Source: Phycisphaeraceae bacterium (GTDB lineage Bacteria; Planctomycetota; Phycisphaerae; Phycisphaerales; UBA1924). Taken from it: DNA of 64,000 nt. The position numbers and the translations under genes are program-made. The stretch's first letter is position 1. Each line of letters starts with the position of its first letter. Where the stretch lies: assembly GCA_007693965.1 (NCBI GenBank), contig RECQ01000040.1, positions 1 through 64,000 on the forward strand, given 5' to 3'. Below are positions 4,918 through 9,521 of the stretch, piece by piece. The notes below the pieces were generated by a model. That model worked only from the letters and a program-made list of their open reading frames with translations. It ran no database searches and was not told the DNA's origin.

Positions 4918-4995
4918 CACCGACCAAGAGGCAGCATGCCTGAATGAGTCCAAGTCGGACACAGCCGGAATGTCAGCGAATCCGCGTAGATCGGC

Positions 4996-5023
4996 TTGAC
5001 AAATCTCCCTGTACCTGTATAAT
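4996..5023 (+). promoter_or_regulatory. Near-consensus sigma-70 promoter of the accessory operon
   Basis: TTGACA (4996-5001) and TATAAT (5018-5023) are both perfect consensus hexamers, separated by 16 bp. Transcription would be expected to start about 7 nt downstream, at or next to the ATG at 5030, so the first gene may be made from a leaderless mRNA. No other intergenic region in the window was seen with so clear a sigma-70 promoter. Confidence 0.85.
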
Positions 5024-5029
5024 GCCCGT

Positions 5030-5683
5030 ATGTCTATCGTAGGTCGCGCTGATAAGAGCATGTCGCGTTGTGAAAGCGAACTGCGTGAGCTGGGCGCGGA
5101 AGCCCTGCGGGCAGGTGATTATGAGTCTGCCCGGCTGATCGCGGAGCTCGCCGAGGCGATCGCGGACCAGCGACGACGTTGTGGGCTGGATGGCTCGGAA
5201 GCTGTGCGCGATCGCAAGCCAAGCGGCGGCGCATCGCAGAACCGGGTTTACCAATCTCCCTCGGTTGGCGATCCGGCGGGGGGAAGTAGTCGGAAACGAC
5301 CGCGAACACCGTCGAAGAAATCTGGCTCCTATCCGCTCTTTGTACGTCGTGGTGAGAAGTTGGTGAAGATAGGCTGGTCAAAGAAGAACAAGCAGGAATA
5401 TGAGCACTCAATGCCGTGGTCCGCGGCGCTTGTTTTCAGCAGGCACCTTCGCTCCAGAGTGCATCGAGGCCGCATCTTCACTGTCGATGAACTGCTTCCT
5501 GCCCCAGATACAGAGAATCAGGCTGAACTTCCTGGATATCAGGTGTACCTTGCCATCGCCTGGCTCAGAGAGATGGGCCTGGTAGAGAAACGCGGCCGGG
5601 ATGGGTACACCGCGGATCCTGGAGATCTGGACGAGAAATCCTTGGCGCAGAGGTGGGCGAAGTTACCATCGCGTGATCATTGA
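5030..5683 (+). CDS. Accessory operon protein 1: unknown, winged-helix-like C-terminus
   Basis: This 217-residue protein matches no family I can name. It has three parts: a helical N-terminus (residues about 12-50, rich in Glu/Ala/Arg), a basic Ser/Gly-rich linker (about 55-100), and a C-terminal domain from about residue 101 (YPLFVRRGEKLVKIGWSKK). The last 70 residues (YQVYLAIAWLREMGLVEKRG, then a GYTA strand) look like a winged helix. DNA binding or operon autoregulation is an inference only. The start at 5030 falls on the predicted transcription start, implying leaderless translation; the next ATG, at 5060, lacks a well-placed ribosome-binding site. It is first in the operon, 12 bp ahead of the ATPase gene. 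Confidence 0.8.
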   Translation: MSIVGRADKSMSRCESELRELGAEALRAGDYESARLIAELAEAIADQRRRCGLDGSEAVRDRKPSGGASQNRVYQSPSVGDPAGGSSRKRPRTPSKKSGSYPLFVRRGEKLVKIGWSKKNKQEYEHSMPWSAALVFSRHLRSRVHRGRIFTVDELLPAPDTENQAELPGYQVYLAIAWLREMGLVEKRGRDGYTADPGDLDEKSLAQRWAKLPSRDH

Positions 5684-5685
5684 GT

Positions 5686-5694
5686 GAGGTGATC
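5686..5694 (+). promoter_or_regulatory. Extended Shine-Dalgarno fixing the GTG start of the ATPase
   Basis: GAGGTGATC is a nine-base match to the complement of the 16S rRNA tail and is followed at once by TGTG, placing the GTG at 5696 at suitable spacing from the GAGG core. It decides for the GTG over any downstream start. Confidence 0.8.
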
Positions 5695-5695
5695 T

Positions 5696-7660
5696 GTGAA
5701 ATATCAGTGGCATTTCAGACCAAGACATCGTGGGGACGACATATCCAATCCGATCAGCGGGGAGTTCTTTGCCGACAGCGGGTCGCCGAATCCTTCTACA
5801 GGACTGGTGCGCGAGGCTCTGCAGAACGCAATCGATGCGGGCAGGCGAATTGACAGGTGGGGCGAGCCGGTTGTGGTGAGGATCGGCATCTTCCGCGGAA
5901 AGCATGCGCTCTCAAGGGAGGCGGCCGCGGAGCGATTCGCATCACTTCGTCCACACCTCTCGGTTGATGGCAACGGGCTGCGAAATGCTCCGGCTGACAA
6001 TGAGCCGTGTGAATATCTGACTGTTGAGGATTTCGGAACATCAGGGCTGACCGGCGACACCACTGCCGACAGTGTGGAAGGACTACAGAACAATTTCGTT
6101 GACTTTGTCCGCAGCGATGGCAGGACGAGAAAAAATGAGGGTGATCGAGGGAGCTGGGGTGTCGGTAAGAACGTGTTTCCGCGCGCAAGTCGTATTAACG
6201 GGTACATCGCCTATACAGTACGCTTTGACGACGGCAGAAAGCTCATCATCGGAAAATCGATCCTCAAGATCAGGCGCATCGGTGGAGAGGAGTTTCAACC
6301 CCAATGCTACATGGCGGATTCATGGAGCCCCAATGATGTGCCGCGACCGTACGAAGGGTCAGAGGCGGTTGATTTGCTTTGTCGGGATTTTCAGTTGAAG
6401 CGGACGACGGAGCCCGGGCTTTCGCTGGTCATCCCTTGGCTGGACGATGACGTAACGTATGAGGATCTGCTGGCCGCGGTGGTCGATCAGTATTATTACG
6501 CAATACTTTCGGGCGTTCTCGCCGTTGAACTCACGGATGGCGACTCAGATTGCACGCTGAGCCGGTCGACCATCGCAGAAATCGTGAGGTCGAAGTCGCG
6601 GCTACGTGATCATGTTGCCATGATCGAACTTGCATCGTGGTCGATGAAATTCCGTCAGAGCGAGCGACTGACTCTGAACGTTCCACATCCAGATGCGGCG
6701 CAGAAATGGGCTGCCGAACTGGTGCCTGAGGAAGTTCGCACGGGAATCACACAGAGACTGCTGCGCCGCGAGCGTGTGGCAGTGCGCATTCCGGTCCACG
6801 TGTACGCCAAGGGTGATTCGGTTCCAGAGCGATCTCATTTCGATCTGTATCTTGAGCACCACGACGAGAGTAAGCAGATTCGTCCGAGCTTCGTACGAGA
6901 GCAGCTTCTCATCAATGATGTGAAACGGGCCGTCGGAGTTCCGAAGATCCGGCCGTTGGTGGTCATCGATGACAAGCCGCTCGCTGCGCTCCTTCGGGCC
7001 GCTGAGCCACCCAGTCACGCCGACTGGAGCGCCAGCACCGGCAACTTCAAGAATGTGTATCACAACGGGAATCATGTGATCACCTTTGTAAAAACGGCTG
7101 TCACGCAGCTCATGAGCATCGTCAGGGCGGGTGATGAAGAGCCGGACCCGACGATCACGATCGATTTCTTCGCGCTGCCGGAGCCGGATGACCGTCCCAC
7201 GCCACCGGGCGGCAGGGAGAAGAAGAAACAACCGGGAGATGACAGCGATAAGAAGATTGGTCCTCTACCGCGCAACCCGCGCCGATTTGCCATCGCCGAG
7301 GTGGCAGGCGGGTTTGTCGTCCGCCCGGGCGAGCCGGGGACGACGCTTCCGAGTCGACTGCGAGTGGCAATGGCCTATGACGTGTTGTCCGGCAGCCCTT
7401 GGAAGCAGTATGAGCCAGCCGATTTCGATCTTACCAGACGGGATCGCAACGGAATCCAAATCGCCGCCAGCGGCGATGTTGAGTTCAAGGTCGCAGACAG
7501 CAATCAGATCCATCTGAAGCTGACCGGGCCGGAGTTCGAGTTGTACGTGACCGGATTTGATCGCAATCGCGACCTCATCGTCCGGGCTTATGATCCGAAG
7601 GAGCCACCTGATGCCGATTCGGCGGCTGAATTACACGAAACGGAAGAAGCTCACGGGTGA
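5696..7660 (+). CDS. Accessory operon protein 2: large GHKL (MORC/HSP90-like) ATPase
   Basis: The 654-residue protein carries a GHKL nucleotide-binding domain at its N-terminus. The N-box is REALQNAIDAG (catalytic-type Glu40 and Asn44), the G1 box is VEDFGTSGL (Asp112, Gly114, Gly117) and the G2 lid is RGSWGVGK (about residues 151-158). A second S5-like region and a long unknown C-terminal half follow, with a charged Lys/Pro linker near residues 500-520. GHKL ATPases of the MutL/MORC type dimerise on ATP binding to clamp DNA and occur in many bacterial restriction and defence operons. No nuclease motif is seen in this chain. Translation starts at a GTG behind a very strong ribosome-binding site. 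Its 3' end overlaps the next gene by 50 bp. Confidence 0.9.
   Translation: MKYQWHFRPRHRGDDISNPISGEFFADSGSPNPSTGLVREALQNAIDAGRRIDRWGEPVVVRIGIFRGKHALSREAAAERFASLRPHLSVDGNGLRNAPADNEPCEYLTVEDFGTSGLTGDTTADSVEGLQNNFVDFVRSDGRTRKNEGDRGSWGVGKNVFPRASRINGYIAYTVRFDDGRKLIIGKSILKIRRIGGEEFQPQCYMADSWSPNDVPRPYEGSEAVDLLCRDFQLKRTTEPGLSLVIPWLDDDVTYEDLLAAVVDQYYYAILSGVLAVELTDGDSDCTLSRSTIAEIVRSKSRLRDHVAMIELASWSMKFRQSERLTLNVPHPDAAQKWAAELVPEEVRTGITQRLLRRERVAVRIPVHVYAKGDSVPERSHFDLYLEHHDESKQIRPSFVREQLLINDVKRAVGVPKIRPLVVIDDKPLAALLRAAEPPSHADWSASTGNFKNVYHNGNHVITFVKTAVTQLMSIVRAGDEEPDPTITIDFFALPEPDDRPTPPGGREKKKQPGDDSDKKIGPLPRNPRRFAIAEVAGGFVVRPGEPGTTLPSRLRVAMAYDVLSGSPWKQYEPADFDLTRRDRNGIQIAASGDVEFKVADSNQIHLKLTGPEFELYVTGFDRNRDLIVRAYDPKEPPDADSAAELHETEEAHG
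7598..7603 (+). promoter_or_regulatory. Shine-Dalgarno inside the ATPase gene that fixes the next start
   Basis: AAGGAG lies 7 nt before the ATG at 7611, inside the last codons of the ATPase gene. It supports 7611 as the start over the in-frame upstream codon at 7557 and indicates translational coupling. Confidence 0.75.
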
Positions 7661-8396
7661 GCAGGTCCGTGTCCGGTTGACGCCGAGCAACAATGGAGCG
7701 CCGCGCGCCTTTGAAGCGTATTTGAAGCTGTCTCCTGGGCTGCCGGGCGACGCTCGGGTATTCGTTGAGGCGTACCTGACAAGCCCGGCGACGCGGATGC
7801 GATTCGACTTCGGCAGTGTCGACGCGATCCAGCCGCCTCCGCTTGAGACACGTCGACTGCATGAATTCCATGAAGACATGCCAGCGCCGCTGTTCCGCGT
7901 CAAGGTGACGGATGTGCGCGAGACGCCGGGCAGGCTTCTTGCTGATGCGCAGAAGATCCGACCCGTCGATCCGGATGAGAAGCCGGACCAGAGGCGGGGC
8001 ATTCTCTTCACCTCCTGGCGGGACAACGATGGCCCGGTCTGGGAGTTAGAGTTTGAAGATCCACGCGGGCCGCAATTGTTCATCGACAAAACGGCCGACC
8101 CGCATCACGACCTGCCTGGAACGCCCGAATTCAGGGCGCTGGTGTATCCGGAGATCATTCGTCGGAGCCTGACGTGGGTGCTCATCGATGAGGAGGGCAA
8201 GTGTATCGAGGATCCGGAGTTCTGGCATGGGCGATGGCTGAACTTTCCCCGAGACGCCTTTGGCTTCAGGGAGGCGCCACCCGCTTCCGGTGCGGATTCT
8301 GCGGAGAAGAGGATGTGGATCGATGAGGCCGTGAAGTGGTGCAGCCAGAAGGCGGGGCTGTGTCGGTCCATCGCCCCACAGGAGGAGTCTGAGTGA
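7611..8396 (+). CDS. Accessory operon protein 3: unknown
   Basis: This 261-residue soluble protein belongs to no family I recognise. The N-terminus is basic (MPIRRLNYTKRKKL) and leads into a beta-rich first half with VRVRLTPSNNG and ARVFVEAYL. The middle contains a WELEFEDP segment. The C-terminal part, about residues 155-235, includes FRALVYPEIIRRSLTWVLID and ends in a Trp-rich helical stretch. No signal peptide, membrane segment or known catalytic motif is visible. Overlap with the ATPase gene on one side and a TGATG overlap with the next gene on the other argue that it works in one complex with them. Confidence 0.85.
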   Translation: MPIRRLNYTKRKKLTGEQVRVRLTPSNNGAPRAFEAYLKLSPGLPGDARVFVEAYLTSPATRMRFDFGSVDAIQPPPLETRRLHEFHEDMPAPLFRVKVTDVRETPGRLLADAQKIRPVDPDEKPDQRRGILFTSWRDNDGPVWELEFEDPRGPQLFIDKTADPHHDLPGTPEFRALVYPEIIRRSLTWVLIDEEGKCIEDPEFWHGRWLNFPRDAFGFREAPPASGADSAEKRMWIDEAVKWCSQKAGLCRSIAPQEESE

Positions 8397-9133
8397 TGCA
8401 GTTCCGAAGGTTTAATGACGCCGGGATCGAGGCGTTTCGCGAATACCTGCAGAGGCTGCGAGCCGAGCCGACATCGCCCCCCCCGCTGTCTCTGCTGACG
8501 AACAACGAGGTCTCGGCGCCGCTCACCCCCGCGATCAGCGCTGAGCCTGATACGTTCGATAGTCGGATGGATTTCGCCCGATGGCTGCACACCGCCTCGG
8601 AAGCGGCGGACGCCACGATCCCTCGCGGCGACGCTGGATTCTGGGCGTGGCTTTCTCTGGCTCTGTTCGATCAGGTGTGTCCGGTGGATGGGAATGGAAT
8701 GCGAACTGTCCGAGAAGATGCAAGATATATTGCCATGTTGCAGGATGCACGGCGACACTATCGACACTTGCTGTTTGGTCCATATTCAATTTTCCATCTT
8801 CATCGAGATGATCCTGACGCCGCTGGCGTCCTCCTATATGGCGAACTCACGACACTCGGGCATCACCAATACCAAATAGCCTCTCGCAAGGACCTGCTTG
8901 GAAATAAAAATGTTCTTTCTGCCGCAACTCTACTATATATTGATGAGCAAACTGGCCGGACAAAGCGGGGAAGTGTTTCTCAGCGTAATGGTTCTGTTTT
9001 TCGATTTGTGCGCATCGTTAACCAGCTGGAACGCGTGTGGGATCTTATGGCGACTGATGCTCGCCAAATAATTGAAATGCTGCCATCGGAATTCGATCGC
9101 TTCAAATCCCCTCGTTCACTGAACGATCTATGA
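8396..9133 (+). CDS. Accessory operon protein 4: unknown, possibly DUF6339-like
   Basis: This 245-residue protein starts at an ATG overlapping the previous stop (TGATG), with GGAGGAG a few bases upstream. The middle has FWAWLSLALFDQVCP and, after a short gap, HYRHLLFGPYSIF; from memory this resembles the DUF6339 family found beside ATPase and methylase genes, but I cannot confirm it. A frame-preserving GTG sits one codon upstream. From about 8700 to the stop the DNA is clearly AT-richer than its surroundings, suggesting recent transfer. It is the last gene of the operon and meets the truncated nuclease gene tail to tail. Confidence 0.85.
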   Translation: MQFRRFNDAGIEAFREYLQRLRAEPTSPPPLSLLTNNEVSAPLTPAISAEPDTFDSRMDFARWLHTASEAADATIPRGDAGFWAWLSLALFDQVCPVDGNGMRTVREDARYIAMLQDARRHYRHLLFGPYSIFHLHRDDPDAAGVLLYGELTTLGHHQYQIASRKDLLGNKNVLSAATLLYIDEQTGRTKRGSVSQRNGSVFRFVRIVNQLERVWDLMATDARQIIEMLPSEFDRFKSPRSLNDL

Positions 9134-9322
9134 ATATATTCTCTCTGTGATACTTGATCGCCTCCGGATCAGGTGAAAAGACAGCGAAGAGTTTCTGTTG
9201 ATACGCGCCGCCAGCTCGATGATGTCCGGGTTGTGCTGGTGCAGCTTGCCGAAGGACGTCTGGCAATAGAGGCGAAAGGCGACGAGCGTTTCTTCCCACG
9301 TCCATTTCCGCTGCTTGGGCAT
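9128..9322 (-). pseudogene. Truncated HNH-endonuclease gene, N-terminal fragment only
   Basis: The 64-codon frame begins MPKQRKWTWEETLVAFRLYC and continues through FGKLHQHNPDIIELAARINR. From family knowledge this is the conserved N-terminal module of a class of HNH restriction endonucleases (WTREELxxAFxxYCxxPFGxxHxxNPxI). After INRNSS the sequence departs from the family and stops; the expected A-M-K-L-x-N-F-A-S-x-D-P segment and the HNH domain are missing. No continuation was found in the other minus-strand frames towards 9100. It lies between the accessory operon and the tRNA gene, so it is probably what is left of an older insertion at the same site. Confidence 0.65.
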
Positions 9323-9382
9323 CACGCCAGGGTGGCAGAACCGAATCTCCGCCGCAACCGGTCGCGCCTGCGCCGACACAAG

Positions 9383-9456
9383 CGCCCCGGGGAGGACTCG
9401 AACCTCCGACCTGCGATTTAGAAGACCGCTGCTCTATCCAGCTGAGCTACCGGGGC
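9383..9456 (-). tRNA. tRNA-Arg (anticodon UCU)
   Basis: A complete 74-nt cloverleaf can be drawn: acceptor GCCCCGG/CCGGGGC, D-arm GCTC/GAGC, anticodon stem GCGGT/ATCGC with loop CTTCTAA (anticodon TCT, reads AGA), T-arm GGAGG/CCTCC with TTCGAGT, discriminator G. CCA is not encoded. The 3' end points towards the accessory operon, the usual geometry for integration at a tRNA gene. Confidence 0.95.
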
Positions 9457-9521
9457 GGGCAGGGAAGCGTACCGGGGTCGTTGCGGGGGGACAACGGGCG
9501 GGCGGTTTCGCCGGCTTTCGC

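Follow-up and report, generated by a model that had tools for sequence, protein, structure and literature searches.

Four open reading frames, g1 to g4, lie on the plus strand of the window (the whole analysed stretch of 64,000 nucleotides of a Phycisphaeraceae bacterium), and neighbouring frames are separated by 12 bp or overlap, exactly as the original prediction had placed them. The first, g1 (5030..5683, 217 aa), is followed after a gap of 12 bp by g2 (5696..7660, 654 aa), which overlaps g3 (7611..8396, 261 aa) by 50 bp, and g3 in turn overlaps g4 (8393..9133, 246 aa) at GTGATG/TGATG. The segment coincides with a sharp trough in base composition from about 4950 to 9460, with a GC content of 54–61% against 67–72% in the flanks, and the lowest-GC 2-kb stretch of the whole window falls inside it; the GC3 of g1–g4 is 0.53–0.73, whereas that of five flanking genes is 0.83–0.89. 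The trough and the low GC3 support the lateral acquisition that had been proposed, and the grouping of the four genes is not attributable to chance, because the same gene order recurs in other genomes and the segment forms a GC island. The adjoining tRNA gene named in the original prediction is tRNA-Arg(tct) at 9382..9456 on the minus strand, and it borders the GC-poor island on the right. No exact repeat of the tRNA end of at least 11 bp, as expected of an attachment site, was detected near the left edge of the island, and no empty site was shown by sister genomes, as homologues of the upstream glycosyltransferase never adjoin those of the other tested flanking genes.

The g2 product is a divergent GHKL-type ATPase and a candidate paraMORC protein. 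The three predicted strings, REALQNAIDAG, VEDFGTSGL and GSWGVGK, are all present in GHKL order (N box at aa 40–48, EDFGTxG at aa 111–117, GxWGxGK at aa 152–158), so that the ATP-binding boxes that are a trait of the paraMORC GHKL ATPases occur here, and they are invariant or nearly so in 82–83 homologues and also in 38 aligned relatives. The conserved residues in the 82–83 homologues are E40..N44..D47-A48, E111-D112-F-G-T115, G152-x-W-G-x-G-K158 and T174, while E437 and H441 of a later ExxxH motif (aa 437–441) are each invariant in 83 of 83 homologues. The GxWGxGK box is also readable as a P-loop-like string. PADLOC candidate PDC-M33A matched the N-terminal 298 aa of g2 (E = 1.1e-14), and neither Pfam nor NCBIfam gave a match; the NCBIfam MutL family profile was among those without a match, which speaks against a characterised housekeeping family, and the true MutL of this genome is encoded elsewhere (G000:C3:7370). 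A Pfam search for a nuclease domain likewise matched neither this g2 nor that of locus L008. In profile–profile comparison, the N box was the only part of g2 similar to other GHKL proteins (E = 6e-5 against an HATPase_c_3 set and 9e-4 against a small MutL set, with control sets at 0.13–0.7). A profile comparison with the MORC family likewise aligned this box only. The motifs support g2 well as a GHKL member that is very divergent in sequence, and since the profile similarity is confined to the N box, this membership is not proven by fold.

The distribution of the genes was assessed in 93 non-redundant loci, drawn from relatives, GTDB genomes and one contig of a viral collection, together with the window. 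Both g3 and g4 accompany g2 in 87 of the 93 loci, and the trio is kept in 42 of the 43 loci with at least 2.5 kb upstream and at least 4.5 kb downstream of g2, its gene ends usually overlapping by 4 nt. The trio g2-g3-g4 is a real conserved unit, and its homologues are not scattered, as the co-location survey suggested beforehand had asked. The compact four-gene unit originally described is conserved in relatives, but the conserved core consists of three genes, with g1 (12/93 loci) as an optional upstream partner. The hosts of the trio belong to Planctomycetota, Bacteroidota, Pseudomonadota, Thermodesulfobacteriota, Nitrospirota, Cyanobacteriota and Chloroflexota and include two archaea. Its occurrence is patchy, g4 being present in 13 of 392 sampled genomes of the phylum of the window and the locus in 5 of 101 relatives. 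No phage matched the locus; one distant match to all three trio genes was found among plasmids, on pRlX5 of Rhizobium leguminosarum (L249, NZ_CP140867.1), and one IMG/VR contig carries the trio. On pRlX5, which comes from a cultured isolate and is a possible experimental source, a C5 methylase follows g4 at a distance of about 2.6 kb downstream. In two further loci (L018:6858-9830 and L019:12382-15315), a protein with Swt1-like HEPN and Hsp70 domains follows the trio and overlaps g4 by a few bases.

The two partner proteins, g3 and g4, matched no family in Pfam, NCBIfam or PADLOC, in agreement with the original description of them as proteins of no recognisable family, and the profile and structure searches proposed for them gave no family either. 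A Pfam scan of 59 g3 and 59 g4 homologues returned nothing consistent, a PADLOC scan of 64 g1, g3 and g4 proteins matched no model, and searches of PDB sequences with the profiles of g1, g2, g3 and g4 returned nothing credible. The mainly helical g4 was predicted by AlphaFold with pLDDT 96 and pTM 0.91, and Foldseek matched its model to nothing in the PDB or in the viral library BFVD at E ≤ 0.001; the residues G11, W84, W86, H125, G200, R204, Q211, D217, E233 and F234 are invariant in this protein. The g3 model (pLDDT 89) exhibits a beta-rich N-terminal part and C-terminal helices, and against the PDB it had no Foldseek match at E ≤ 0.001, only weak fibronectin-like ones. A candidate assignment of g4 to DUF6339 was discarded, no Pfam match being obtained.

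The upstream gene g1 has no profile family in Pfam, NCBIfam or PADLOC, and its earlier description as winged-helix-like found no support in profile searches; the PDB sequences matched by the g1 profile are mainly designed helical proteins. A g1 profile search of 400 genomes of the order of the window also detected clear homologues in loci that lack the trio. In five of these (L170, L172, L173, L174 and L175), the gene directly downstream of g1 carries GHKL-like boxes and belongs to other, unrelated families, the boxes being recognised by motif inspection, without Pfam support. This arrangement suggests that GHKL-like ATPases may share g1 as a general partner. A consensus sigma-70-type promoter, TTGACA-N16-TATAAT (4996..5023, plus strand, 12/12 matches), ends 6 nt before the ATG of g1, in a region where chance alone would give 1.6 promoter-like sites, and this placement predicts a leaderless message. 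The same spacing of the -10 hexamer, 6 nt and ATG was detected by script at g1 of L009, L010, L064, L172 and L175, and by eye, with weaker hexamers, at some other g1 starts. A leaderless g1 transcript common to different systems is accordingly a prediction from the promoter sequences. Some restriction systems, AhdI for one, have leaderless controller genes (PMC5333194), an analogy that hints at a regulatory role for g1.

The neighbourhoods of the trio differ among the relatives. Of the 93 loci, 29 have a C5-cytosine methylase within 8 kb and 22 have a Vsr gene. All 11 other loci with g1 and the trio, namely 10 in the 93-locus table and one (G100) with an operon divided between two contigs (L010, L012), adjoin a C5 methylase, in most cases accompanied by Vsr, the methylase match of L083 (the same locus as L176) being partial and weaker than the others and the sequence of L064 ending within the operon. 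With the window excluded, a methylase was found in 10 of 11 loci with g1 vs 19 of 81 without it (Fisher p = 2.4e-5). In L009, the order methylase-Vsr-g1-g2-g3-g4 occurs on one strand, with methylase and Vsr confirmed by Pfam; an EcoRII-C nuclease adjoins the trio in L034; in both L038 and L046 the trio stands beside a GHKL protein that carries a weak HSDR_N-type domain; and other neighbouring genes match type IIG, type IV, DrmD and GmrSD models. Directly before the trio of L041 and L056 lie genes resembling a HEF_HK/response-regulator pair, recognised by domain content and sequence appearance and not by the two Pfam models. The restriction and defence surroundings that had been anticipated for the ATPase from family knowledge are thus borne out by the neighbourhoods of relatives, and the restriction-modification setting typical of paraMORC proteins is represented in the window by an HNH remnant only. 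In a midpoint-rooted quick tree of g2 with several long branches, whose division into two parts is provisional, a methylase is present in 27 of 59 loci of the branch holding the window vs 0 of 28 in the rest. These 28 of the 87 trio loci (e.g., L022, L026, L031 and L044) have no methylase or Vsr nearby, and where the flanks are full, 0 of 10 loci in this part of the tree have either; the trio can therefore exist without modification genes.

The nuclease remnant pointed out in the original prediction was confirmed as the two ends of an HNH gene on the minus strand, downstream of g4. Its N-terminal 46 codons (9185..9322) match the PADLOC HNH model PDLC04132 (E = 1.9e-16) and, in tblastn, residues 20–65 of the HNH protein of the nearest relative, L171, align with window positions 9322–9185 (E = 5e-10). 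The C-terminal 16 codons (FSPDPEAIKYHRENIF; 9132..9179) lie in another frame, where residues 259–274 of the 277 of the L171 protein match positions 9179–9132 (tblastn, E = 1e-5). The stretch that once joined the two parts, about 190 codons with the HNH motif among them, is absent, the deletion being read from a draft genome in 74 contigs. L171, which shares 46, 49, 54 and 51% identity with g1, g2, g3 and g4, carries a methylase gene and then an HNH gene (PF13391, HNH_2) converging on g4. Its C5 methylase (L171:663-1576) is only 300 aa long, apparently without a C-terminal part, and stands directly before the intact HNH gene. Because both ends of the remnant match the g4-converging HNH gene of this relative, the remnant is most likely the nuclease of the system itself. 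A type II restriction-modification set comprises an intact endonuclease gene with a methylase beside it, and in the window the HNH gene has an internal deletion and no methylase stands beside g1–g4. The earlier argument that a lacking methylase or nuclease distinguishes the locus from restriction-modification is not supported, as all 11 other four-gene loci adjoin a C5 methylase and the remnant corresponds to the L171 nuclease. Elsewhere in the genome of the window, five C5-methylase (PF00145) loci and three Vsr loci occur, and two further clusters have the order methylase, uncharacterised gene and Vsr (L167, G000:C70; L168, G000:C62).

The locus is probably, though by no means certainly, a horizontally acquired and partly decayed restriction-type defence cassette of methylase, HNH nuclease and four genes, of the GHKL ('paraMORC') kind. 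With the methylase absent and the HNH gene truncated here and both present in relatives, the window locus looks like a broken member of the system. The ancestral form would have had g1-g2-g3-g4 converging with an HNH nuclease gene that was followed by a C5-cytosine methylase, and the window copy would have lost the methylase and the catalytic middle of the HNH gene while g1–g4 stayed open. In the proposed mechanism, the methylase would mark self DNA, g2 would act as an ATP-driven, dimerising GHKL clamp that inspects DNA with its obligate partners g3 and g4, and nucleotide-dependent closing of the clamp would license the nuclease on unmarked DNA; this nuclease would differ by lineage (HNH, EcoRII-C type or restriction-fold GHKL fusion), and g1 would serve the ATPase as an adaptor or a regulator. 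We infer the ATPase activity of g2, the formation of a complex, the licensing step, the anti-phage effect and any remaining function of the window copy, and the idea of the original prediction that the four proteins act as one anti-phage complex is of the same conjectural kind. Against a decayed cassette stand the lack of a methylase or working nuclease in the window, the short methylase of L171 itself, the 28 methylase-free trio loci and the GHKL assignment of g2 by motifs, with no Pfam match and profile similarity in the N box only.

The methylase-free loci, in which the trio is intact and contiguous, bring forward the main alternative: the trio would be a self-contained defence unit with g4 (or g3) as effector and g2 as ATP-driven sensor, methylases and nucleases would have been recruited in some lineages, and the window copy would be functional. 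The invariant polar residues H125, R204, Q211, D217 and E233 of g4 could form an active site, and the window genes are open with their invariant residues kept; however, neither g3 nor g4 has a known catalytic motif or fold, a methylase is present in 27 of the 59 loci of the window's own branch and the contigs that carry several of the 28 methylase-free loci are short, so we consider this account rather unlikely. Its boldest version, in which g2-g3-g4 would be a self-sufficient, phylum-crossing immune engine with the GHKL clamp driving a new-fold g4 with a new active site, and g1 would be a general plug-in adaptor for several unrelated defence GHKL ATPases, is held to be unlikely. The losses in the window might also mean a dead relic that has no present function and is kept only through recent loss of its methylase and of the catalytic part of the HNH gene, but four uninterrupted reading frames, retained family-invariant residues and a consensus promoter speak against it, and we give it the same rather low credence as the self-contained unit. 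That the trio is a non-defence DNA-structure or repair module, a MutL-like clamp with two accessory proteins borrowed by restriction systems, would agree with the GHKL-type motifs of g2 and with methylase-free branches that partly track host phyla (Nitrospirota/Nitrospinota, Thermodesulfobacteriota and Pseudomonadota), yet the patchy occurrence in the phylum and among relatives, the foreign base composition, the restriction and defence genes as recurring neighbours and the separate MutL of the genome make it quite improbable.

A decayed cassette of this kind finds several counterparts among known systems. The available text of Iyer, Abhiman and Aravind (2008, PMC2292703) predicts that paraMORC/MORC GHKL ATPases serve restriction-modification with Dcm, Vsr and nucleases, so that the GHKL restriction kind as such was, as far as that text goes, already predicted in 2008. 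As there described, these families resemble that of the window in their GHKL-type boxes and their patchy, laterally mobile occurrence, and their neighbours (Dcm, Vsr, HNH or EcoRII-type nucleases and SNF2 helicases) resemble those of the trio loci. The invariant ExxxH of g2 may correspond to the motif that the same text describes for paraMORC2 late in its S5 domain, the two being compared by description. The available text names no fixed partners of the g3/g4 type for paraMORC, and it calls paraMORC2 mainly cyanobacterial and Gram-positive, unlike the spread of the trio, the families again being compared by description only. The HEF_HK/Response_reg_2 system (Bellieny-Rabelo 2021, PMC8011034), whose gene pair is the one resembled by the genes before the trio in L041 and L056, likewise places GHKL proteins in C5-methylase/Vsr/HNH_2 surroundings, but a response-regulator-like gene is absent from the window, and g2 represents a different GHKL-type family. 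PADLOC PDC-M33 requires companions beside its component A, and component A alone, in part, was recovered, through the N-terminal region of g2. The nearest experimental precedent for the proposed mechanism is VcSduA, a Shedu type I-D (paraMORC3) protein whose action against phages depends on the GHKL motif as well as on the nuclease (PMC12137116). It resembles the proposed system in coupling a GHKL ATPase to DNA restriction and differs in its own C-terminal nuclease; g2 gave no Pfam match to a C-terminal PD-(D/E)xK domain such as defines Shedu/paraMORC3 ATPases, and it has two separate partners.

New relative to the 2008 prediction are the strictly kept trio, the two proteins in it that belong to no listed family and the placement of g1 upstream of several unrelated GHKL-like ATPases. 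GHKL/MORC ATPases are the proposed source of the eukaryotic MORC silencing proteins. With a fixed trio that recurs in many bacterial phyla and in two archaea, such an ATPase acquires defined partners, among them g4, whose structure is predicted with confidence and finds no Foldseek match in the PDB. The coupling of the ATPase to DNA recognition can be approached through the methylase-free branches and through the link of g1 to unrelated GHKL proteins.
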